Positions 52,926-64,000 of a stretch of DNA of 64,000 nucleotides are shown here, piece by piece (within the stretch, counting starts at the first letter, position 1; the number at the start of each line of letters is the position of its first letter). A model generated the notes under the pieces. The model saw only the letters and a program-made list of their open reading frames with translations, made no database searches and was not told where the DNA came from. Source of the DNA: Oscillospiraceae bacterium (GTDB lineage: Bacteria; Bacillota; Clostridia; Oscillospirales; Ruminococcaceae); contig JAQYLI010000031.1 of the NCBI GenBank assembly GCA_028720105.1, positions 41,691 to 105,690 on the forward strand, written 5' to 3'. Position numbers and translations under genes: made by a program.

Positions 52926-53071
52926 TCACAGTGAAAAAATTTTTGCGTGAGATTAACGTATTTTTTACGGGAGAAAAAATCATTCTGCCAAACACGCAAA
53001 AAACAGTCTCAGCCGAATGAAATATTATGTTATGCTCTTAATCTTTTATTGTATCAAACCTGTTAATACCG

Positions 53072-53254
53072 ATGAATTATATATCCAAAATAAATAGCGA
53101 CATTCGGGCGGCACCGGAGCAGAAAGCACGCACAACTTACGACAATATCCTGCGCTTTGCCGACGACCCGGATGTCAGAGATCCTATCAAATTTCTCAGG
53201 CAGAGGGAGATCGTGCATTTTCAGAGATTCGGCGATACCAAACGTACAAAGTGA
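53072..53254 (+). pseudogene. cotJC: CotJC (manganese-catalase-like spore coat) fragment, left of the element
   Basis: APEQKARTTYDNILRFADD and FLRQREIVHFQRFGD match the last third of CotJC/manganese catalases (xEQKAR..Y, REREVVHFQRFGEAL). The first 120 or so residues expected for the family are absent upstream: only 146 bases separate the fragment from the mgtE promoter and they do not encode them. The native reading ends at the GGCGA at 53231-53235, where the element begins; DTKRTK after it is element DNA. It is the left half of the split gene, already 5'-truncated. Confidence 0.75.
53228..53235 (+). other. Left attachment site core (attL)
   Basis: TTCGGCGA in the CotJC codons for Phe-Gly-Glu, the counterpart of TTTGGCGA at the right end. 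The shared GGCGA is the likely crossover region. Just inside, CCAAACGTACA is the attP arm. Confidence 0.7.
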
Positions 53255-53387
53255 AGTAAGTATGAAGGGGTTAATGGTGGTTAAATTTTTTCGTTTCTTG
53301 AATTATCCATATCCAATAATATGAATACTTGAAGAAATGAAACAGGGACAGCACATCAATGCCGCCCCTATTACGATTTTACAATTA

Positions 53388-53942
53388 TCAAACTCCCCGT
53401 TCCCGTATCAGCTTATCCAGAGTGGGACGAGATATCCCTAACTGCTTTGCAAGCTCCGTCTTGTTTATCTCCCTGCGGAGATACAGAGCATACAGCCCGT
53501 CAAACATATCCGATGAAAAAGGCTTGCGCCCTTTATACTTGCCGTTACGCTTTGCAATGGCTATGCCCTCTCTCTGACGTTCAAGGAGATTTGTCCGCTC
53601 AAATTCATTTATTGCAGCTATCATAGTGAGCATAAGCTTTCCCGTGGGCGTTGATGTGTCGATGTTCTCCTTGTTGCTCACGAGTGCTATGCCTTTGCTG
53701 TGGAGCGTTTCAACGATATCAAGCAAATCCTTTGTACTTCTTGCAAGACGGGAAAAATCGTGGATATAGACGGTATCACCTTCACGAGCAAAATCAAGCA
53801 TTTGCTTTAGCTGTGGACGGTTGGTGTCCTTTGCGGATATCTTTTCGGTAAACCATTTTTCAATGCCGAACTTCTCAAGGGCTTCTATCTGTCGGGCTTC
53901 ATTCTGTTCAATGGTCGATACTCTTACATAAGCTATTTTCAT
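53388..53942 (-). CDS. Serine recombinase of the resolvase/invertase family
   Basis: 184 residues. AYVRVSTIEQNEARQIEAL has the catalytic Ser (about 9); YIHDFSRLARSTKDLLDIV and LTMIAAINEFERTNLLERQ follow, then the C-terminal helix-turn-helix REINKTELAKQLGISRPTL, as in Pin/Tn3-type enzymes. It should cut at sites within a few hundred bases, likely the TTTACA-rich region upstream. GGAGGG precedes the ATG. It probably resolves or inverts DNA rather than integrating the element. Confidence 0.9.
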   Translation of the reverse strand: MKIAYVRVSTIEQNEARQIEALEKFGIEKWFTEKISAKDTNRPQLKQMLDFAREGDTVYIHDFSRLARSTKDLLDIVETLHSKGIALVSNKENIDTSTPTGKLMLTMIAAINEFERTNLLERQREGIAIAKRNGKYKGRKPFSSDMFDGLYALYLRREINKTELAKQLGISRPTLDKLIRERGV

Positions 53943-53961
53943 ATCATTGCCCTCCTATGGC

Positions 53962-54080
53962 TGTAAATTTGGGGTGTACCCTATTTTGCTATATTGCAGT
54001 TATCGAAAATACTGTAAAATAAAGGCGGTTTTACACATTGTTTTACACTATGTAAACAGGCTCAGACTCTATATTTACAG
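53962..54080. repeat. Cluster of TGTAAA/TTTACA repeats next to the recombinase gene
   Basis: TGTAAA or its complement occurs about six times in 120 bases (53962, 54013, 54029, 54041, 54051 and 54074), partly as inverted pairs such as TGTAAAA...TTTTACA. This is the layout expected of a res-type recombination site or of operator repeats for a serine recombinase. Confidence 0.5.
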
Positions 54081-54148
54081 TTATGGGTATTTAGCAACCG
54101 CCCATCTCTGAGCGGTCACTATATACATTAACATTCGGGTGAATGGAA

Positions 54149-54580
54149 TTATAGAATGAACTCAAACGGCTCTATCCTTGCCGAAAGATTCAACAGCTTG
54201 TTTGTGTCGAGGTTAAGTCGCTTACACAGACAGGAGATATCCGAATCCTCACCTCTGGCGAACTTCTCAAGATCTGCCACAACATTTTCATCTTGCCACT
54301 CTCCACCGATACAAGGGAACATCGACAGGAAAAGAAATGTATCGCAAAAATCTGTGTAGCCGTTCTCATATGGTATGATGATGTAGAGGAATAACACTTC
54401 ATCGGGAAAATCCAGAGACTCTTTCAGAAGCTCCTTACAAAGATTCTGTCTCATTCTGATGGGGAGAGAAAGCCACTCAACGGAAAGCGAGATAAACGAG
54501 GGCTTAATGTGAATATCCGCTATATTATAAGATAGGGGCTTTACTGTGAAATTTGCTGAATTACGTTTCTTATTGCTCAT
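54149..54580 (-). CDS. Hypothetical protein of 143 residues
   Basis: A soluble acidic protein (SNKKRNSANFTVKPLSYN..., GGEWQDENVVADLEKFARG, LCKRLNLDTNKLLNLSARIE). No family recognised. I use the ATG 9 bases after AAAGGA; an ATG six codons earlier overlaps the stop of the upstream gene (TAATG) and would put that site inside the gene. It lies in the left, non-recoded part of the element. Confidence 0.6.
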   Translation of the reverse strand: MSNKKRNSANFTVKPLSYNIADIHIKPSFISLSVEWLSLPIRMRQNLCKELLKESLDFPDEVLFLYIIIPYENGYTDFCDTFLFLSMFPCIGGEWQDENVVADLEKFARGEDSDISCLCKRLNLDTNKLLNLSARIEPFEFIL

Positions 54581-54597
54581 AATCAAAAATCCTTTCA

Positions 54598-54795
54598 TTA
54601 GTCAAATTTGCCGAATACCATACACAAGCCCAAAGGCACGAAAAGCAACGCCGCCGTTATATCATAAACGCCGTTATCCTTGCTTGCAATTGCGGACAGT
54701 ATGCCCAGCGCAACGAACATAATGCCGCATAACTTCTGCTTGACGGTATCGGGCAGGCGGTCGAAAAGTCGGACGATATTTCTATATATGTACAT
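54598..54795 (-). CDS. Small two-helix membrane protein
   Basis: 65 residues: a basic, amphipathic start (YIYRNIVRLFDRLPDTVKQK), then two hydrophobic helices (about 22-38 and 46-61). Its stop overlaps the downstream gene's first ATG. Function unknown; small hydrophobic proteins of this size are frequent in phages (holin-like or superinfection functions), but nothing specific points to one. Confidence 0.6.
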   Translation of the reverse strand: MYIYRNIVRLFDRLPDTVKQKLCGIMFVALGILSAIASKDNGVYDITAALLFVPLGLCMVFGKFD

Positions 54796-54815
54796 CTTGA
54801 AGTCTCCTTGTGTTC

Positions 54816-55013
54816 TTACACTCTCAGCCCGTTTTCCTTGATGATACGGGCAAAGAGCATTTTGTTGACGGTCTTGCTGTGGACGGGTATGCTGATACTT
54901 GACTTGCCGTTGCTGTAAATGGAGTGTCCACCCTTGCCGGGTCTCAGAAATGAAAATCCATTGGCGGCAAGAATGGCAACGGCTTCACGAGTTGCAAATT
55001 CCTTTTTACGCAT
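54816..55013 (-). CDS. hicA: HicA-like type II toxin, no HicB partner seen
   Basis: 65 residues. FLRPGKGGHSIYSNGKSSIS and IPVHSKTVNKMLFARIIKEN match the double-stranded-RNA-binding-like HicA fold; the conserved His in GGHSIY is the catalytic residue. HicA cleaves mRNA during translation and is normally neutralised by HicB encoded next to it. No HicB frame is seen on either side. GGAGG lies 5 bases before the ATG. The upstream extension is non-coding. Confidence 0.78.
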   Translation of the reverse strand: MRKKEFATREAVAILAANGFSFLRPGKGGHSIYSNGKSSISIPVHSKTVNKMLFARIIKENGLRV

Positions 55014-55033
55014 AGTTACCTCCGAAAATCTTC

Positions 55034-55063
55034 TTGACATTCGGGGCGGTTGCGGTGTATAAT
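55034..55063 (+). promoter_or_regulatory. Plus-strand promoter upstream of and opposed to hicA
   Basis: TTGACA, 18 bases, TATAAT, directed away from hicA. No plus-strand gene follows it; the transcript would contain a CCCCT...AGGGG hairpin at 55094-55121. Confidence 0.55.
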
Positions 55064-55131
55064 AGCAGTAGCCGCCCCTTGTGTCAGTTGTTGCCCCTCT
55101 GCAAGTTGCGGTTGCAAAGGGGACTTGAAAC

Positions 55132-55419
55132 TTACTTGACTGTAAGGCGTTCGTATGTTGAAGCCTTAACAAACACGTTGTAAATGTCGGGGCGGTTTTC
55201 CTGCAATGCCTTGCTGTCAATGCGGTTTGCGGTAACTAATATTATTGGTGGAATATATTCTTTGCGGCACTTGTAACAGCAGCTCAGGACAACATCAAGC
55301 GATCGGAGCAATGTATCGCTCCCGAAAATATCAACAGAGAATACCACCAGAGAACAGATGGTTAATTTTATTGGTGGAGAAATCCGTGTATATAGCTTTA
55401 TAATAGCGAACACCGTCAT
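55132..55419 (-). CDS. Doubtful small membrane protein
   Basis: Reads as about 95 residues with two hydrophobic stretches and a Cys-rich centre (LSCCYKCRKEY), ending VFVKASTYERLTVK. If the TAG at 55482-55484 is read as sense, it can be extended upstream to about 55569. Another frame at 55331-55561 is equally open. I cannot decide which, if either, is translated, and list it as the least certain gene of the element. Confidence 0.3.
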   Translation of the reverse strand: MTVFAIIKLYTRISPPIKLTICSLVVFSVDIFGSDTLLRSLDVVLSCCYKCRKEYIPPIILVTANRIDSKALQENRPDIYNVFVKASTYERLTVK

Positions 55420-55881
55420 AATAATAGCGGCTGTAAAGAGTGGAGTATCTCGGTAGAGCTTGGATAGTAATCTCGGTGTTTGCTATATTAGCGTTATCTT
55501 CTTTTTTCGGTGAGGACAATAATCCGTAGTGAAATCTATCACTACTCCAGATAGTCCCCACCTCAAAAAAATGGATTATGTCACCTTTATAACTCCTTTA
55601 TACAAGGGATAAGTCCGAAAGCGGCGTAGTTAAGCCATATTTTTTCAGTTTTGGCACTTTTATATTTTAGGAAAACGAGTCAGTTTTTTAACGAAATACG
55701 CCAAAAGTGCAGTAAATACAAGGCTTTTAGCATTGTTACTATTGGCGGTGCGAAAAGTGGTAATACATAAACTAAGGGAGCGGCGACAATTATATGTCAT
55801 AATTCCTTTATCTTCCTGCAAAATTGGTACATTCCCAGAATCATATTCCACCGTTATAATAAAAAAACCGCCCAGAAAAAC

Positions 55882-55910
55882 TTGACAGGACGGCAAAAAT
55901 ATGCTATAAT
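55882..55910 (+). promoter_or_regulatory. Consensus promoter in the element's non-coding region
   Basis: TTGACA, 17 bases, TATAAT. The next credible start on plus is at 56498, so a leader of about 580 nt or a separate small RNA would result. Confidence 0.8.
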
Positions 55911-56287
55911 TATATTATAGGAAAGTGAAGTGCATATAACTATACAAAAGTATATCAGATTCTAAAAGAGATATATTGTTTATCTGGTAAATTGTTTGTG
56001 AACTTTATTTGCTTTATCTTGGGGGTAAATCTATTTCGGGAGGATATGCCAATGTAATATTTTTAAATGTGCGGTCAGGTGTTTCAGTTGCCGATACGAT
56101 ACCAACATTATATTATTCATTTCGTTGGTGGGAATTATCCAGCGTGGGAAATGATACCACCCGAATATAATATTGTGCGGACAGTAATACTAATACTCAG
56201 ATCGTGGCTGTATGTACAACAGAACTTTGTGTATCTCATATGAGCCATTTTTGCAGTATTTTCCTACATAAACGGGGGATTTTGTGA

Positions 56288-56388
56288 GGTCGGAATTTGG
56301 CGAGTTGGAAAAATGCCCGTTTTGTTAGGTGTACAAAGGGTTTTTGCACGATTTTGAGGAAATTTTCAAGGTCGAAATTTGGCGAGTT
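56288..56388 (+). repeat. Two iteron-like direct repeats upstream of the recoded winged-helix gene
   Basis: GGTCGGAATTTGGCGAGTT (56288-56306) and GGTCGAAATTTGGCGAGTT (56370-56388) differ at one base. A shorter double TTTGGGATA occurs at about 56411-56428. Such repeats often bind the replication initiator or repressor encoded next to them. Confidence 0.55.
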
Positions 56389-56497
56389 ACCATTTATTGT
56401 CAATATTGACTTTGGGATACTTTGGGATATGGTATCTTTGAAACAAGACTTGACGTTAATCGGTAATCACAATAACAAGAAACAGGAGGAAATCACA

Positions 56498-57358
56498 ATG
56501 GGAAAATTATAGGCAATCGACACGGAAACAGGAGAGATGGTCGAAGTATCTAAAATTATCACTATGGAACAGATGGAAGTCATAGAATAGAAAAACTACC
56601 AAAATATAGCAGTTGAATGTTGCCGTGCTATTCATCATAACCGACATTTCATAATGTACTTCTTTGGCGAGAATTTTGATTTAACAGATTTGAAGCCCCA
56701 AACCGCCGCAAGACTTATGTACCTTGCGACTTGGCTTGAATACGATAGTGAATATTTAATGGTGGGTAATAACAAAATGTCAAGGGAACAAATGGAAGAT
56801 ATTATGCATTTGAAGCCTACAACATTTAAAGCCTTTCTTAAAGAGGTCACAGATTTGGGCTATCTAATCAAAGATGATAATTCATACCGACTTAATAAGA
56901 AGATTTTTCACAAGGGGAAACATCGACACAAAAAATCTCTTGTTGATACCAGATATGTAAGAGTATATATCAAATATATACGGTCATTATACGAAATGAC
57001 TCCGCAGACAAAACACTCGAATCTTGGGTATATCTTTCAGCTCATTCCCTATATCAATATTGAATACAACATTATCTGTCATAATCCACTTGAGAAAGAC
57101 TTGGACTTGATAGAGCCTATGACTGTCAGGGAACTTTGCGAAGCGATCGGATATGATTAGTCTCACGCTTCAAGGTTGTTGGATATATACGATAATATCA
57201 CCTTTGAAGCAGACGGACAAAAATATTACTTTTGCGGATATGCTTGCAGGAATAGAAGATAGAAAGATGCTGACTTGCGAATATATGTGAATCCCTTGAT
57301 ATTTTTCGCAGGAAGTGATGAACATCAGGTTGATGTTCTGAAATTGATGTTCGTATAA
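56498..57358 (+). CDS. Winged-helix replication/regulator-like protein with four in-frame TAG codons
   Basis: AGGAGG precedes the ATG by 8 bases. Read with TAG as Gln it gives 286 residues: TAGs at codons 5, 31, 221 and 255 (56510, 56588, 57158 and 57260), ending at TAA. The first two would otherwise stop it after 4 and 30 codons. FNDLKPQTAARLMYLATWLE-like LKPQTAARLMYLATWLEYDS, MSREQMEDIMHLKPTTFKAF and LGYLIKDDNSYRLNKKIFHK form a winged helix, as in phage/plasmid RepL-like proteins, and the end RIYVNPLIFFAGSDEH resembles their C-terminal motif. The exact role is inferred. Confidence 0.8.
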
Positions 57359-57372
57359 TGGAGGATATGACT

Positions 57373-57711
57373 ATGGATTTATTTGATATTTATGCTGATT
57401 ATCGGAGCGGTAACAAGTCTGCTTTCGACAGGATTTTTACAGATAGGGTCGAGGGTTTAGGGTGCGAGAATTATTACAGCACACTTGAAATCAATATATA
57501 GAAACTTAACAATCTGGTGAATGAACTTCATCGTAAGAAATGCAAGTCAGTTAATAGAAATTCATATAGTGGGGATTTTGATGATCTAAAAAAAGACCTT
57601 GCCTTAATTTTGTTCCAGATTTTCAATGATAAGAATTTCACAGCTCACAGCGAATAGGAACTTTATGAGAAGATTAAGGATAACATACTTGACTGTATCA
57701 AGACAAAGTAA
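57373..57711 (+). CDS. Small phage-like protein with two in-frame TAG codons
   Basis: GGAGG lies 8 bases before the ATG, 14 bases after the previous TAA. With TAG as Gln (codons 43 and 95; 57499 and 57655) it has 112 residues and ends at TAA. MDLFDIYADYRSGNKSAFDR resembles the start of some phage sigma-like or regulatory proteins, but the rest (NNLVNELHRKKCKSVNRN, ALILFQIFNDKNF) does not settle a family. Between TAGs there is no other stop. Confidence 0.75.
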
Positions 57712-57741
57712 TCCGTTTCCGACAAATAGAAAAAATTTGGT

Positions 57742-57791
57742 GTGCCCGTAAACCGCTTCATTGCGTTGCTTGCGGACACGCTATTTTTTTT
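57742..57791 (+). terminator. Terminator between the recoded genes and the first HTH gene
   Basis: GTGCCCG / CGGACAC stem (one mismatch) with an inner CGC/GCG, followed by eight T residues. Confidence 0.65.
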
Positions 57792-57825
57792 GCAATTTTA
57801 CTATAATGGAAGGGAGTGAAACAGT

Positions 57826-58035
57826 ATGGATTCATCACTTAAATATCAGGTAACTGAGTTTCTGAATTGTAGCGGAATGACAAAATCACAGTTTGCTAAG
57901 AATGTTAATATGTGTTGTACAACAATATGTGAATGGCTTAACGGCAACAGGAAACTCAGCCAAAAGGCGCAGCTCCGAATTAAAGTGTTTTTTTCGGAAT
58001 ATGTTGAAAAAATATGCAAAATAATCAATACTTGA
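57826..58035 (+). CDS. Small XRE-like helix-turn-helix protein 1
   Basis: 69 residues: MDSSLKYQVTEFLNCSGMTK, SQFAKNVNMCCTTICEWLNG and LSQKAQLRIKVFFSEYVEK. SQFAKNVNMCCTTICEWL fits a Cro/XRE helix-turn-helix. It has the same length as, and about one third identity with, the next gene, so they are duplicated paralogues. GGAAGGGAG precedes the ATG; stop is TGA. Likely an operator-binding regulator of the element. Confidence 0.75.
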   Translation: MDSSLKYQVTEFLNCSGMTKSQFAKNVNMCCTTICEWLNGNRKLSQKAQLRIKVFFSEYVEKICKIINT

Positions 58036-58126
58036 GAAAGGTGGGGTTGGTATGTTTTATGAGATACAAAGATATCATATGAGAAACTGAAAAACAATGA
58101 TGGGAAAAACGAAAAATAATTTCAAT

Positions 58127-58172
58127 GTCCGTAATCGACGTAGGCAAGCGGTTTGCGGACTCGATTTTTTTT
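58127..58172 (+). terminator. Terminator between the two HTH genes
   Basis: GTCCG / CGGAC stem with an inner GCAA/TTGC, then eight T residues. Its layout repeats that of the terminator before the first HTH gene. Confidence 0.65.
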
Positions 58173-58211
58173 GATGCAATTTTTGTATATTGGAAGGGAG
58201 GTATATTCAGT

Positions 58212-58421
58212 ATGAACACTATTTTAAAAAACAAAATCAATACATTCTTGAAGCATAGCAAAATGTCACAGGCTCAGTTTGCCAAATGTGCAGACATTGG
58301 AGTGGTCACACTTAATCTATGGCTTAATGACAAGAGAGTTATCAGCTCAAAGATGGAAAAGCGTATGGAAGATTTTATGCTTGATTATGCGGCGAAAATA
58401 ACAGAAATAGCAAACAGTTAA
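58212..58421 (+). CDS. Small XRE-like helix-turn-helix protein 2
   Basis: 69 residues (MNTILKNKINTFLKHSKMSQ, AQFAKCADIGVVTLNLWLND, DYAAKITEIANS). Paralogue of the preceding HTH protein, with the same length, the same QFAK and WLN positions and a similar promoter-terminator region in front, so a unit of about 385 bases appears duplicated. GGAAGGGAGG precedes the ATG; stop is TAA. Confidence 0.75.
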   Translation: MNTILKNKINTFLKHSKMSQAQFAKCADIGVVTLNLWLNDKRVISSKMEKRMEDFMLDYAAKITEIANS

Positions 58422-58590
58422 GAAAGGAGGGCTTCATCTTGTTCATAATCACAGAAACACAGACAGCAATTTTAATGCGGACGGGGCGGCGATAGGATTC
58501 GGGCGGTTAAGCTGTCGGTCAGTACAAAATGAGTAAATCGCAGTTATTCAGCCCAACAAAAAGAAAATATATGACAAGCTGAAAAACAAT

Positions 58591-59025
58591 ATGATTAAAA
58601 AAACAAAAAACAATATAACAGCACAAGACTTGAATTGTCGGAAAAATCGTTATATCAAAAATCTTGAAGGCGAGATATGGAAATCGTTGGAAGATTATCC
58701 GAATTACATAATATCTAATATGGGAAGAGTGTTCTCAATAGAGAAAAAACGAGTGTTGAAACCATATGTATGCCCAGATAAACAGAATCCGAAAAAGGTG
58801 CTTTATCCCACCTTGAAGTTGAAAAACAGATGGGGCAAATTTGATAATGTATTTCTCCATAAGGTGGTTGCCATCGCTTTTGTAGAGAATACTGAAAACA
58901 AGCCGCAAATTCACCATAAGGACAAGAATCCATTGAATTAGCGAGCTGACAATTTGATGTTCGTAACGGCGGCAGAACATCAAGCAATACATAAAAACGA
59001 TAAGAAAGGAAGTAATGAAAAATGA
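58591..59025 (+). CDS. HNH homing-type endonuclease read through one TAG
   Basis: 144 residues with TAG as Gln at codon 117 (58939-58941). NUMOD4-like start (EIWKSLEDYPNYIISNMGRV) and the HNH motif IHHKDKNPLN-Q-RADNLMFVT. The read-through restores the family's usual LNNRxDNLxWVT pattern, with Q at the second N position. It ends at TGA (59023), overlapping the next start as ATGA. With a normal stop the HNH core would be cut in half. Confidence 0.85.
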
Positions 59026-59294
59026 TTTTAGGAGAACTTATTGATGTACTATATTGTATGGATATTAAGATTATGCAACTTGGAAAAAGCGGAGAGCCTG
59101 CTCCGATATACGAGGGCAAGAGCAGTTTTTTCAGAATGAATGACTATGAAGCGAATCTTTCTGTTATGTGGGTAGCTCCACACAGATATTTATGCGGCGG
59201 CTTATTTATAATGGTCGAAGAGCCTCAGAAATCCACCATAAACACCGAAAGTATTCCACCCGAACAAGAGGAGCTTAACTATGACGTTACTTGA
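59022..59294 (+). CDS. Hypothetical phage protein of 90 residues
   Basis: MILGELIDVLYCMDIKIMQL, a central GGLFIMVEEPQ and an acidic end (PPEQEELNYDVT). No TAG within; stop is TGA. Its first codon overlaps the stop of the HNH gene. AAAGGAAG lies about 12 bases upstream. No family recognised; the small size and overlaps are phage-like. Confidence 0.65.
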   Translation: MILGELIDVLYCMDIKIMQLGKSGEPAPIYEGKSSFFRMNDYEANLSVMWVAPHRYLCGGLFIMVEEPQKSTINTESIPPEQEELNYDVT

Positions 59295-59508
59295 TCTGAG
59301 TCTTGAGCTACAGGATTATTGCCGTCTCGTTGTTATGGAAAAAAAGGATAATAAAGCCGATTATAAAAAAGTGTATGACGGACTGAACATTGACTTGAAA
59401 TTGGATTATTTCTTTTACAAGGTTCTTAGCATTAAGCCGCAGAAAGATACAGTAACCGTGGTGGCAAAAAAGCGGTCGATGTTCGAGGCAATTCTTGATT
59501 ATGACTGA
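59281..59508 (+). CDS. Hypothetical phage protein of 75 residues
   Basis: MTLLDLSLELQDYCRLVVME, VYDGLNIDLKLDYFFYKVL and VAKKRSMFEAILDYD. It overlaps the previous gene by 14 bases with GAGGAG 8 bases before the ATG, so the two are translated together. Stop TGA, no TAG within. Unknown function. A terminator-like hairpin follows. Confidence 0.65.
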   Translation: MTLLDLSLELQDYCRLVVMEKKDNKADYKKVYDGLNIDLKLDYFFYKVLSIKPQKDTVTVVAKKRSMFEAILDYD

Positions 59509-59510
59509 TA

Positions 59511-59537
59511 AAAGCCCCACTCGGAATGAGCGGGGCA
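59511..59537 (-). terminator. Terminator of the zinc-ribbon gene (minus)
   Basis: GCCCCACTC / GAGCGGGGC stem with a short loop; the minus-strand side is followed by TTTTATC. It may also serve the plus-strand gene before it. Confidence 0.65.
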
Positions 59538-59542
59538 ACATA

Positions 59543-59869
59543 TCAATCAAATACAATAGCTCTCAGAAGCTCCTCTGTTGTAACATCTCTTTCCATCCAA
59601 TAAGGAAGCTTTGACTCGGTGGAGGGAAGATACTCTTCACGAATTATCTGAGGCTCAAGGGGAATGTATCTTTCATCTTGAGGTTGCGTTGAGCCACATC
59701 TTTCACAGGATAATTTTACATTGTCCTTGAGTACAACAAAATCGTGTGATATGGTTTGAAATTTATCCGTATCTACAAGATGATCTTCTCCACATTCACA
59801 ACAACGGAGAGACACACAGTAAGGCGGTTCGTGAGCTAAAAGTGAGCTACATAAATCAAACATAAACAC
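59543..59869 (-). CDS. Zinc-ribbon protein on the opposite strand
   Basis: 108 residues. CVSLRCCECGEDHLV and SCERCGSTQPQDERY give a two-CxxC zinc ribbon (Cys 24, 27, 55 and 58). The rest is acidic. It is the only minus gene in the right half and has its own consensus promoter. No TAG inside; stop is TGA. Possibly a regulatory or anti-host protein (inference). Confidence 0.7.
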   Translation of the reverse strand: MFMFDLCSSLLAHEPPYCVSLRCCECGEDHLVDTDKFQTISHDFVVLKDNVKLSCERCGSTQPQDERYIPLEPQIIREEYLPSTESKLPYWMERDVTTEELLRAIVFD

Positions 59870-59898
59870 ACCCCCAAAAACAGATTTATTCTATTCAT

Positions 59899-59927
59899 AT
59901 TATACCACTAAACATAATATAAGTCAA
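59899..59927 (-). promoter_or_regulatory. Promoter of the zinc-ribbon gene
   Basis: Minus strand: TTGACT, 17 bases, TATAAT, 30 bases before its start codon. Confidence 0.82.
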
Positions 59928-59948
59928 TACATTAGAAAGGAAATCTTT

Positions 59949-61550
59949 ATGGCAGAAAACGAATTAAAAGTAATGGTTACGGCAGAGCTTGATCAGCCAA
60001 AATCCGTAACACAAATCAACAATGATATTCTGAAAATCGAATCACAAATCAAAAGAATCAAATTGCAAGCATAGCTTGATGGGAATGTTAGTGCTGAAAT
60101 CCAACAGCAAATCACAGCACTCAACAGACAAAAAAGAAATCTGTACATCGACTTAAAGCTCCGCAAGAATGATTTGAAAAGGCAGTATAAGCAGGCTATA
60201 GCACAGGTACAGACACAGACACAGCCTTTGAATGTCTCGGTAAGTACAGCAAATGCCCAGAAACAGATGGTGGGATTTTCCAATACTATCAAGGCTACAA
60301 AGAGTGAGACGGAAACACTTGGCGGCGCATTGCAAGCCGCTCTTAGGAATACGGGCTTGGTGGTATCATCACAAACAGCCTTACAGCTTGTGAGAAAAGC
60401 AGCGCAGGAAGCAACAGAAGCGGTCAAAGAGTATGACAAGTATGCTACAAATCTTTCCATCATCACAAACGGCACAAGAGCGGACTCTGATAATATCATA
60501 GCTGACTTATCGGAAAAGAGCTTTGAATTTAAGGTCGATATCTCAGAGCTTGAAAACGCTTATGAAACGTTGCTCAGAACAGGAAAAGCCGCAGGAGAGC
60601 TTGACGATTATCTGAAAAGCACGGTATTTCTGTCAAAGATAGGTTTTGAAGATATGGAAACGTCCGCTTCTAACCTTGTGACGATCGGCAATGCTTTCAA
60701 ATTACAGTCGGACGAAATCGAAAATGTGGTATCGAGCTTAGTTGCTCTTGATACGGCTTCAAATACCGTTGCAGGAAAGCTGTCAACGGCAATGGGTAAG
60801 ACCGCTCAGAACGCCCAGCTTGCAGGACTCAGTATTGATGAACTCGGTGCTATTATCTCGGGTCTGAGAGATACAACGGGTAAAACTGAGGACGCTATTG
60901 CTACATCAATAAATGGTATTCTGACAAGGCTTTATACAAGCCTTGATGCTCCCACCTTTGACAATGGCAATGGTAATACCGACCCTAACAAAGCCGCTTT
61001 CGATGAACTCTATGCAAAGTGGAATCACGATGTCGAGATGAACAGGGTTACACAGGAAGAGTATATCAATTGGCTTGACGGAGCATATAAGCAGTATTTC
61101 TCCGACCTTACCAAATATCAGGAAGAATATAACAAGTATGAAGCAGAGGTCTACAATGCCCGTAAAGACAGGGAGCAAGACCTTTTTGACAAAAAGATTG
61201 AGAATTACAAGAAACTCTCCGATAACGCTCTTGAAAAATATGTTGACGGTGACGGAAACGAGCTGACAGTAAATGCAAGTTTTGATTATGCACGTTCTCA
61301 GATAAACGGGGCTATTGCGGAGACTCAGAGCCGTATCAATGAACTGTCACTGAAAACAGGGTTTGAGGACGAAATCGAAAATCTGAAATCAGACCTTGAG
61401 GGGCTGTATGATACTCTGGACGATATCAATAAAAAGGAAATCGAGTCTCAAAAAGATTATATCGACAGGCTCAAGGACGAGTATTCCGATTTGATGGACG
61501 AGCGTATCTCGGAACAGAAAAATCTTGCTGACAATATCAATGAAGCCTAA
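59949..61550 (+). CDS. Phage tail tape-measure protein with one in-frame TAG
   Basis: 533 residues when the TAG at codon 42 (60072) is read as Gln (IKLQ-to-LQAQLDGNVS). AAAGGAA precedes the ATG. The N terminus is helical and coiled, then the TP901-type tape-measure core (YATNLSIITNGTRADSDNII, AGELDDYLKSTVFLSK) and VAGKLSTAMGKTAQNAQLAG, GLSIDELGAIISGLRD, then a long coiled coil (about 350-533). It ends at TAA. Much shorter than usual tape measures, without the C-terminal lytic domain, so truncated or from a short-tailed element. Confidence 0.85.
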
Positions 61551-61674
61551 GGAACTTTTGTGTAAATGGATAAGCTACTATATTAAAAAAGATTTGGAGC
61601 AGGACGATAACGCCTCCAACAATGTGCAGAATATGAACAGTTGCAAGAATAAGGTGGAACAAAATGAAATGTAA
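61540..61674 (+). CDS. Small basic protein of 44 residues in overlapping frames
   Basis: MKPKELLCKWISYYIKKDLE continuing to KNKVEQNEM. It overlaps the end of the tape-measure gene by 11 bases and the start of the next gene by 11 bases, in another frame, which is typical of compact phage operons. No good ribosome site is seen. Function unknown. Confidence 0.35.
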   Translation: MKPKELLCKWISYYIKKDLEQDDNASNNVQNMNSCKNKVEQNEM

Positions 61675-62080
61675 AAATTTGAATGAACTATTCAGATAGA
61701 TTGAAACTGACATTCAAGAAACAATGACAAAAGAAGTTGTAAACGAGGTCAAAGATGAATTGGTAAATGCTGTTTATATCTCGGTTTACGATGCTTATTC
61801 CCCGGTACAATATGAGAGACGATATGATAACGGCGGTCTTGGGTCAAGACAATATATGTGTATGGAAGAAACTCAGAATGGATTTTTCGTCAGAGACTTT
61901 GCTCCTCTGGATAACGGCAGAATTGATTATCATCTTGATGATATTGTTGTGAACGGGTTCGACCATATGCCGTTTCCCCGAAATTTTTATTAGGATTGTG
62001 TGGAGACGTTGGAAACAACGAGAGATCACATCGAGGCTTTGAAGCGTGGACTGAAAAAGAGAGGATACAAGGTGAAATAA
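61664..62080 (+). CDS. Small phage protein with two in-frame TAG codons
   Basis: AAGGTGG precedes the ATG. With TAG as Gln (codons 12 and 110; 61697 and 61991) it has 138 residues and ends at TAA: NELFR-Q-IETDIQETMTKE, AYSPVQYERRYDNGGLGS, PFPRNFY-Q-DCVETLETTR, KRGLKKRGYKVK. YxPxxYxRRxxxxGL resembles small phage head-closure/HK97-gp10-like proteins (weak). If the TAGs were stops only a fragment from 61724 to 61993 would be made, without a site for initiation. Confidence 0.78.
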
Positions 62081-62145
62081 TCTGGTTATTGGTTATAAGG
62101 AAAGTTGTCCTACTCATATAATTTGACGGATAAGGAGTTGTTATT

Positions 62146-62253
62146 ATGGAAGATTTTGAATGTATTGAAAAGTGCGAAGATGATGTATCAGTAAATGAAA
62201 TAGAAAATATTGAGAATGAATTGTTTAAGATTTTTGCAAAGTATTTCGCATAA
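62146..62253 (+). CDS. Small acidic protein of 35 residues
   Basis: MEDFECIEKCEDDVSVNEIE ending LFKIFAKYFA. AAGGAG lies 8 bases before the ATG, which is the main evidence. Ends with TAA. No family. Confidence 0.45.
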   Translation: MEDFECIEKCEDDVSVNEIENIENELFKIFAKYFA

Positions 62254-62272
62254 AAATAATGAAAATGAATAT

Positions 62273-62301
62273 TTGACATTTTAGGCTGATGGTGTTATAC
62301 T
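62273..62301 (+). promoter_or_regulatory. Promoter of the integrase gene
   Basis: TTGACA, 17 bases, TATACT, 49 bases before the TTG start. Confidence 0.82.
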
Positions 62302-62350
62302 GAAAATAACCACCATTAGCCTTCTTTGTATTAAGAAGGGTTGATGTAAT

Positions 62351-63847
62351 TTGAAAATTGCGATATATGCAAGAAAATCTGTGTATCGTGAAGATTCTAT
62401 ATCAATTGAATCACAAATCGAGATGTGCAGATATGAAGCAAGAGGAGAGGAGGCAGTAATATATCAGGACAATGGATTCAGCGGAAAGAATACCGACAGA
62501 CCAGACTTTCAGCGTATGATGTCCGATATAAGAGCTAACAAGATAAGCAAGGTCATTGTTTATAGGCTTGACAGGATAAGCCGTTCTATTCTGGACTTTT
62601 CCGAGATGATGGACGAGTTTCAGAAACACAAGGTCGATTTTATATCCGCAACAGAACGCTTTGACACTTCAAGCCCGATGGGACGGGCAATGCTGAATAT
62701 CTGCATTGTATTCGCACAGCTTGAGCGTGAAACTATACAACAGCGTGTTGCAGATGCTTATGACAGCAGAAGCAGACGAGGTTTTTATATGGGCGGTAAA
62801 ATTCCTTACGGCTTCACCAAAAAGCCTACTGTTATTGATGGGATAAAAACATCTATGTATGAAGTCAATCCTGTTGAAGCAAATGACATAAAAAGGATAT
62901 TTAAACTGTATTCAAAGCCATCCGCTACTTTGGGAGATGTTGTCAGGGAGATAACAAAGGACAGTTGTGTCAATAACCGTGGTAAGAATTGGAATACAGT
63001 ACGGATATCAGAGCTTATGAGAAATCCCGTTTATGTAATGGCTGATGTCAACGTTTATATGTTCTTCAAACAGCAGGGAGCAAATCTCTGTAATCCGATA
63101 GAGGATTTTGACGGTATGCACGGCTGTTATCTGTTTTCTGGTGAAAACACTAACCGTAAAACGTGGGATTTGGAAGGTCAGAATGTTGTAATTGCTCCGC
63201 ATAACGGCTTTATTCCCTCTGATATATGGCTCACTTGCCGTAAGAAACTTCTTGGAAATCACCAGATCAAGACTTGCAAGGCAAAGAACAGTTGGCTTGC
63301 AGGAAAGGTGAAATGCGGTTGTTGCGGTTACGCTATGACTATTAAGAAATCCAAAACAAAAGCAGGACGGTATTTCGTTTGTTCAGGAAGAGCTAACAAG
63401 ATTTGCGATACTCCAATGCCTACAATATATGCAGATGAATTTGAAAAGCTGATTGAAGGCAGGATAACGGATAAATTGACAAATATTGTCATTAAGCCTA
63501 AAGCGGAAGGTGTCAGCAATAACGAGATAATCAAACTGAGAGCGGATATTCTGAATATTGAAAACAGCATTGACACTCTCATTGATAAGCTCACAGAAGC
63601 TGACAGCACTACTGCTTCATACATAAACCAGAAAATCAAGAAACTTGACTCCGAAAAAACAGAGCTATTACAGCAGATAAGCAGGCTTGAAGAAGCGGAA
63701 AGCAAGCTCCCCGATTTTAAAGCCTTGACAAACGTTATGAGCGTGTGGGATAAGCTGTCATTTGATGATAAAAGGGACGTTGTACAGCTTATTATTGACA
63801 GGATAACGGTGTTTCCAGATAGGGTGGAAATAGTGTGGAAATTCTGA
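62351..63847 (+). CDS. Large serine integrase
   Basis: 498 residues. The catalytic domain is AIYARKSVYREDSISIESQ (Ser about 10) with VIVYRLDRISRSILDFSEMM and LERETIQQRVADAYDSRS; the recombinase domain (GKIPYGFTKKPT, MRNPVYVMADVNVYM) and zinc ribbon (VKCGCCGYAMTIKKS, FVCSGRANKICDTP) follow, then a coiled coil (about 395-450). It integrates and excises the element. Start is TTG. It contains no TAG and lies right at the element's edge, so it can be made by a host that reads TAG as stop. Confidence 0.95.
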   Translation: MKIAIYARKSVYREDSISIESQIEMCRYEARGEEAVIYQDNGFSGKNTDRPDFQRMMSDIRANKISKVIVYRLDRISRSILDFSEMMDEFQKHKVDFISATERFDTSSPMGRAMLNICIVFAQLERETIQQRVADAYDSRSRRGFYMGGKIPYGFTKKPTVIDGIKTSMYEVNPVEANDIKRIFKLYSKPSATLGDVVREITKDSCVNNRGKNWNTVRISELMRNPVYVMADVNVYMFFKQQGANLCNPIEDFDGMHGCYLFSGENTNRKTWDLEGQNVVIAPHNGFIPSDIWLTCRKKLLGNHQIKTCKAKNSWLAGKVKCGCCGYAMTIKKSKTKAGRYFVCSGRANKICDTPMPTIYADEFEKLIEGRITDKLTNIVIKPKAEGVSNNEIIKLRADILNIENSIDTLIDKLTEADSTTASYINQKIKKLDSEKTELLQQISRLEEAESKLPDFKALTNVMSVWDKLSFDDKRDVVQLIIDRITVFPDRVEIVWKF

Positions 63848-63864
63848 TGCTTATTGATGTACGC

Positions 63865-63872
63865 TTTGGCGA
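63865..63872 (+). other. Right attachment site core (attR)
   Basis: TTTGGCGA, counterpart of TTCGGCGA at the left end. Inside it, TGTACGCTTTGG is the second attP arm, complementary to the left arm CCAAACGTACA. Confidence 0.7.
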
Positions 63873-63945
63873 AGCGCTCCGCATAACTCAGGATAATCTC
63901 CACTCCAGAAACTTCTACGCCTTTAACCCCGAATTTGATAAATAA
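63865..63945 (+). pseudogene. cotJC: CotJC C-terminal fragment, right of the element
   Basis: FGEALRITQDNLHSRNFYAF and NPEFDK, ending at TAA, continue the left fragment in frame (HFQR | FGEAL). The joined stretch is about 80 codons and matches the last part of CotJC, which seals the case that the element sits inside this gene. Confidence 0.75.
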
Positions 63946-63956
63946 ATTTATTTAAA

Positions 63957-64000
63957 TAAAGCTCGCCTTTCCTGTTTTGTTCAGCGAAAGGCGAGCTTTA
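63957..64000 (+). terminator. Terminator after the cotJC fragment
   Basis: TAAAGCTCGCCTTTC / GAAAGGCGAGCTTTA stem with a loop of about 14 bases; any T tract lies beyond the window. Confidence 0.75.

Follow-up and report, generated by a model that had tools for sequence, protein, structure and literature searches.

Can a small mobile element lodged in the chromosome of a standard-code bacterium carry genes in which the amber codon is read as sense? The question is raised by ten in-frame TAG codons in five phage-type genes of an element at 53236..~63872 of what we call the window, the 64,000-nucleotide stretch of DNA analysed here. The window is the final 64 kb of contig C31 (JAQYLI010000031.1, positions 41,691 to 105,690, forward strand) in assembly GCA_028720105.1 of an Oscillospiraceae bacterium, a genome of 2.31 Mb in 51 contigs that is 86% complete. 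The element is phage-like, about 10.6 kb long, and lies inside a likely spore-coat gene, cotJC. The reading that we favor, with confidence a little short of even, is that a phage remnant lies in a sporulation gene and that the rightward genes of this remnant probably read UAG as sense with a decoder provided in trans. Under this proposal a phage-derived element would be seated in cotJC, and the TAGs of its rightward phage genes would be decoded as sense, now or until recently. The decoding tRNA would come from outside the element, for example from a TAG-recoding phage that shares the cell, and the residue inserted at UAG would be a polar one; read-through, trans-acting decoder and polar residue are all three what we infer. 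In a standard-code host, the recombinases of the element would be used to excise it and rejoin cotJC, a step that would be independent of the decoder because both recombinase genes are TAG-free.

Ten TAG codons in five phage-type frames

An earlier note on this DNA, made from the sequence alone, had reported ten in-frame TAGs in five genes and no TAA or TGA inside the same frames, and all of them are present. They fall at codons 5, 31, 221 and 255 of g1 (56498..57358, plus strand, 286 codons; TAG at 56510, 56588, 57158 and 57260); at codons 48 and 100 of g2 (57358..57711, plus strand, 117 codons; TAG at 57499 and 57655); at codon 117 of a NUMOD4-HNH endonuclease gene (58591..59025, plus strand; TAG at 58939; Pfam HNH_3 at 1.6e-8 and NUMOD4 at 5.2e-8); at codon 42 of a shortened tape-measure gene (59949..61550, plus strand, 533 codons; TAG at 60072; PF10145 at 3.6e-19); and at codons 12 and 110 of g5 (61664..62080, plus strand; TAG at 61697 and 61991; PF27376 in its database column). 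The five genes, 1,218 codons in all, contain ten internal TAGs, 0 TAA and 0 TGA, and the ten remaining genes of the element (1,372 codons) contain no internal stop, a confinement with p 5e-4 for a split that was chosen post hoc. None of the 15 element genes terminates in TAG, TAA and TGA being retained as terminators; this is weak evidence, since only 2 of 41 host open reading frames (ORFs) end in TAG. An all-against-all tally of stops on the coding strand returned, among the matches listed, the TAGs together with TGA 57817 and TAG 53957, both of which lie 5' of gene starts, outside genes; the tally is inflated by antisense frames.

Homology, beyond mere openness, sets the TAG-bearing frames. 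It comes from 41 database proteins for g1 (best 67% identity; the gene also matches phrog_9501 and, weakly, helix-turn-helix (HTH) proteins), from 58 database proteins for g5, and from DNA relatives for the HNH and tape-measure genes. The g2 frame is supported by one near-identical database protein, P0105, and one distant DNA relative, L071.

The main rival is that a derelict prophage has recently decayed in the ordinary way, in which case the all-TAG pattern would be due to luck and to the choice of a window for that very look. We hold it to be unlikely, although it deserves serious weight, and on the sequence simple decay fits the TAG pattern poorly. Because TAG accounts for 35-41% of the nonsense changes open to single-base mutation in these codons, ten TAGs out of ten have a probability of 3e-5 to 1.4e-4. 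The earlier note had argued that random decay would give all three stops, and its argument is supported by this figure and by the conserved columns of g1 and g5. In g1, 43 of 44 columns that are invariant in 18 other sequences are kept, with no private deletions and one private inserted column; in g5 the count is 28 of 28 columns invariant in 16 other sequences, again with no private deletions. Retention of invariant columns in the relatives themselves ranges from 0.88 to 1.0. (Sequences more than 90% alike were dropped from this test, as were, for g1, its 14 most remote relatives and, for g5, five rows.) Frameshifts were met in none of the five frames. The note had also held that TAA or TGA breaks in the same frames of relatives would speak against recoding, and none were seen in genome searches of g1, g5, the HNH gene and the tape measure. 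Finally, comparison of the C part of the tape measure with the relative L149 (183 codons) gives a dN of 0.014, a dS of 0.575 and a dN/dS of 0.024; in the free drift time that this dN permits, about 2.5 nonsense changes would be expected in the five genes, and ten or more have a P of 3e-4.

The points that weigh against sense decoding begin with this last bound, and are joined below by the residues found at the TAGs and by the search for a decoder. The N part of the tape measure (290 codons against L149; dN 0.123, dS 1.18, dN/dS 0.104) would permit about 22 nonsense changes, so the bound is not binding there and is drawn from the C part only. It would hold only if the C part has shared the history of the window throughout; the unlike dS values of the two parts hint at a possible mosaic, and g1, g2 and g5 could have drifted free for longer than the tape measure. 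The element is moreover partly derelict, since its tape measure is without 2,517 bases (839 codons) that are present in the relative L043, and without its C-terminal part. A left-hand gene, likely a phage-gene remnant at 55135..55260 on the minus strand, seems reduced to its last codons, which match L068 over 42 aa at 60%. Decay is favored by this cut-down tape measure and this stub, by an N part that sets no limit on drift time, and by frameshifts in relatives, namely in the tape measure of L149 and in the recombinase of L043, where they are perhaps errors given a contig coverage of 1.8. Coding density does not discriminate in favor of TAG: on mechanical ORFs, as opposed to Prodigal calls, it is 71.4% in code 11 and rises to 81.4% when TAG is treated as sense, but also to 88.5% for TAA and 82.2% for TGA.

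Also on this side of the balance, the genome searches met internal stops only in the gene copies of the window, the other matches being readable in the standard code. These searches, whose samples overlap, gave nine matches in 8 of 396 genomes for g5, eleven in 8 of 396 for the tape measure, five in 5 of 297 for the HNH gene and, for g1, three in 3 of 357 by alignment and 1 of 100 by sequence. When the search for the tape measure was widened to the genus to which the relative G387 belongs, G387 alone matched (1 of 11). Among viral contigs, g1 alone, g2, a DNA word from g2 and the tape measure had no relative, and two alignments had distant ones (6 + 6 loci); phage records held distant g1 relatives in 21 records and no relative of the tape measure or of element DNA.

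Residues at the TAGs and the search for a decoder

The earlier note had read the TAGs as glutamine and had judged that Gln fits each of them. What stands of this is the TAG-only interruption of conserved phage-type frames; the column tests did not bear out the residue. When 1,041 columns across g1, g5, the HNH gene and the tape measure were scored, the columns of 45 real Gln codons had a mean Gln log-odds of +2.25 bits and the eight scorable TAG columns a mean of -0.24, lower than in any of 5,000 resamplings that drew eight Gln codons each. No single amino acid reaches a sense-codon-like score at the TAG columns, the best other residue being Lys at +0.40, followed by Gln and Arg. When we checked the homologous residue at each TAG, as the note had proposed, the nearest relative had Gln at 31 of 44 Gln codons versus 2 of 8 TAGs (Fisher p 0.04); its residues at the TAGs are Q, K, R and Q in g1, Y and S in g5, N in the HNH gene and K in the tape measure. 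Some positions clearly depart from glutamine: g5 codon 110 (TAG 61991) is Ser in 54 of 58 rows, with two Ala and two gaps, HNH codon 117 (TAG 58939) is Asn in all eight loci compared (five distinct places), and g1 codon 221 is Arg, Val or Lys in 31 of 41 rows. Such a mixture speaks for decay, the more so as 6 of the 8 nearest-relative residues can be encoded by a codon that differs from TAG at a single base, although such a codon was found in DNA only as AAG (L149) and TCG (L043).

These columns also bear on a further proposal, which we regard as improbable: that the element descends from a recoded phage and has kept its established code 15 (TAG = Gln), the same code that crAss-like phages use. 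In addition to the failed column tests, the remaining matches found are standard-code, and the tape measure has 31 CAG or CAA codons versus one TAG. Code 15 would account for Gln in the nearest g1 relative, P0006, at codons 5 and 255, and for Gln at both g2 TAG positions in P0105. The latter protein is encoded on a contig of 4,117 bp and shares 110 of 112 residues with g2; its glutamines may be independent support, or may be circular if the gene was called under code 15. Also on the side of decoding is a further g5 allele, P0078 from a 1,059-bp contig, which apart from its start differs by two changes and whose last residue, 109, directly precedes the second TAG. P0097, a 62% g5 relative from a contig of 578 bp, stops at the same residue, which may reflect either the contig end or a shared stop. 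Taken together, glutamine would be allowed as the meaning of TAG yet is not established. The column mismatch would not be decisive if the TAGs are young, because single-base mutations that turned codons for various residues into TAG would then amount to missense substitutions by Gln.

No decoder was found where we looked for one. ARAGORN returned no tRNA in the window, an Rfam scan of 53000-64000 had no match at E <= 1, and the genome-wide search for a tRNA with a CTA anticodon that the earlier note had suggested found none among the 28 tRNAs of the incomplete host genome. Its absence from the host proves little, as six tRNA isotypes (Ala, Asn, Cys, Glu, Ile and Trp) are absent from the same list. 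In 20 genomes of the genus, a pattern search for a CTA tRNA hit 21 places in 17 of the 20, never with CTA; the 21 loci, when scanned, were Arg(TCT), His, Leu(CAG) and neighbours, or no tRNA. The lack of a decoder in the window, the Rfam interval and the host list is what decay would lead one to expect.

If the host itself tolerated amber codons, so that any TAG could be passed by means of a suppressor tRNA, pyrrolysine or inefficient termination at UAG, the mixed residues at the TAG columns would be better explained than by one fixed meaning. The rarity of TAG as a host terminator and the gaps in the tRNA list would suit this explanation as well. Nevertheless, it seems to us a poor prospect, as 446.6 kb of host DNA, scanned by codon usage, showed no TAG excess (TAG made up 7 of 122 in-frame stop candidates at a threshold of 0.15), and host-wide recoding was rejected on these grounds. 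The sensitivity of the scan is 0.66 at this threshold and 0.30 at 0.3, and it fails to flag the ten TAGs of the element itself because it requires 30 open codons on both sides as well as host codon usage. Pyrrolysine was rejected as well: the PylS profile TIGR02367 exceeded its cut-off in 0 of 20 genus genomes, that of the host included, and its weak matches occur in 16 of these 20 and also in 13 of 14 control genomes. Together with the absence of CTA from the pattern search in the same genomes, this argues against tolerance at the level of the host. As far as the sample reaches, tolerance of TAG belongs to the element or a helper and not to the host's own genes, because the sampled host genes have no TAG excess.

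Decoding in trans, the reading that we prefer, could in principle be taken further. The element may be an amber-locked satellite, with phage genes that would be silent in a standard-code host and readable only with the suppressor tRNA of a TAG-recoding helper phage. We think this quite unlikely; if it were true, the genetic code itself would be the sensor of the helper.

An element seated in cotJC

The flanking protein split by the element is one that we take to be CotJC; NCBIfam assigns it to manganese catalase, below the cut-off. The left flank (53121..53235, plus strand) is an internal part of cotJC up to the crossover core TTCGGCGA. Its 115 bp are identical to the end of contig C1 of the same assembly, which continues into the 3' part of cotJC, and its protein matches the CotJC part of L043 at 95% aa. 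The right flank (63868..64000, plus strand) consists of the crossover core TTTGGCGA and the C-terminal codons of cotJC to the contig end, and matches contig C1 except for one mismatch at 63901. Bounded by the halves of the undivided C1 site, and with L043 as a syntenic relative, the intervening element (about 10.6 kb) can be placed at 53236..63872, with ends accurate to +/- 5 bases. It interrupts the reading frame of the CotJC-like protein, which fits a location within a sporulation-related gene. Since the undivided site is present in C1, element-free or element-excised cells must have been present in the sample; the mismatch at 63901 leans towards a different, element-free strain over excision, and a circular form of the element was not seen.

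The cotJC gene seems to be broken a second time, near codon 137 (window 53081-53236; contig C8, 2-379; contig C1, 6714-6530, minus strand; the latter two are loci L064 and L065 of genome G000). Its N part adjoins a GAPDH-like gene on C8, and the part after codon 137 adjoins an mgtE-like gene in the window, both gene names being given by eye. Once rejoined, cotJC may therefore still be without its first half. On the element-free contig C1, another, different large serine recombinase gene (L065, 4903-6459) lies directly 3' of cotJC and convergent with it.

A serine recombinase gene lies near each end of the element. The small one (resolvase type, 184 aa, 53388..53942, minus strand) is 88% identical in aa to that of L043. 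The large one, an integrase of 498 aa (62351..63847, plus strand) with Resolvase, Recombinase and Zn ribbon domains, adjoins the right crossover. The leftward genes are the small recombinase, three small TAG-free genes of 149, 65 and 65 aa (54149..55013, minus strand), which match L043 at 32% over 47 aa, 60% and 63%, and the probable stub described above. About 1.2 kb without recognised genes (55260-56490) separate them from the rightward set. Rightward, g1 and g2 are followed by two small HTH-like genes (57826-58035 and 58212-58421, plus strand, no TAG), the HNH gene, three small TAG-free ORFs (59022-59294 and 59281-59508 on the plus strand, 59543-59869 on the minus strand), the tape measure, g5 and the large recombinase. 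Relatives were found for the first and third of the three ORFs, and none for the one at 59281-59508. A model of the g1 relative P0006 (pLDDT 82.9) and the g5 relative P0047 gave no PDB fold match at E <= 0.001. The tape measure, HNH endonuclease, phrog_9501 match and integrase are prophage-like content and fit a phage-like nature.

Where relatives of the element genes carry a name, their records are labelled Ruminococcus sp. or Oscillospiraceae bacterium, which makes a clostridial host likely. In L043 (Ruminococcus sp. SIG547) the shared genes lie in the same order at the same left site, with identities of 83% for most of the large recombinase and 53-55% for g1, the HNH gene and g5. The tape measure matches in two parts, at 73% and 70% to L043 and at 82% and 95% to L149 of genome G387. 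At the right end of L043 (17841-17995), recombinase and crossover core are followed by sequence that by eye resembles the left interior of the element, which may represent the junction of a circular form or a further copy.

At E <= 1e-60, relatives of the large recombinase occur in 94 of 396 family genomes. Behind the window and G024, the eight best of them all have the 3' part of cotJC directly behind the recombinase, and the same holds for G024 (L071). A cotJC-linked integrase may thus be common, independently of the code question, the site being confirmed for the best eight fetched and for G024. In G395 (contig C140, 2050-3549; L125), an 84% identical recombinase lies at the 3' part of cotJC with host-like genes close on the opposite side, and the element there seems reduced to little beyond the integrase.

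Significance and comparison with known systems

If UAG is decoded here, a mobile element without a code-changing tRNA of its own keeps amber codons in conserved genes on a standard-code chromosome, and one element can borrow the genetic code of another. The locus would also offer a test of how recoding begins, with few and recent TAGs, several ancestral residues and Gln not yet fixed.

The element shares with TAG-recoded (code 15) gut phages and prophages the presence of TAG alone in frame and of TAA or TGA as terminators. It differs from them in being a 10.6-kb remnant for which no suppressor tRNA was found and in which the residue at TAG is not clearly Gln (PMC8241571, PMC12454387, PMC10879173, as far as the parts consulted go), and in that its other matches found are standard-code. 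The earlier note had called a small, integrated recoded element in a standard-code host much less described than recoded gut phages; the integration of recoded phages is, however, already in print as a prediction, since in the part of that survey consulted 38 of 10,742 pig-gut prophages are predicted to use alternative codes, with TAG not listed separately (PMC12454387).

As regards the insertion, known sporulation-gene-intervening elements include skin (sigK), SP-beta (spsM), vfbin (spoVFB), gin (gerE) and yin (yabG), according to the passages seen (PMC10747680, PMC5595907). The nearest precedent met is a prophage of C. difficile that adjoins a cotJC homologue, which the passage seen does not describe as splitting the gene (PMC11222575), and the literature surveyed, by abstracts and passages, contained neither an element that splits cotJC nor one of this type whose genes are interrupted by TAG. 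The best NCBIfam matches of both recombinases, XisF of the fdxN element and CcrB-type large serine recombinases, are all under the curated cut-offs. Like the sporulation-gene-intervening elements, the one described here is phage-like, encodes serine recombinases and interrupts a sporulation gene, and an element-free junction is found in the same assembly. Unlike them, it targets cotJC, which itself appears broken upstream at about codon 137, and carries TAG-interrupted genes; its excision at sporulation is putative. What is new in this comparison is the place of the element in cotJC, with a recombinase gene close to either end, together with the element-free junction and the relatives of the integrase that lie at cotJC in other genomes.

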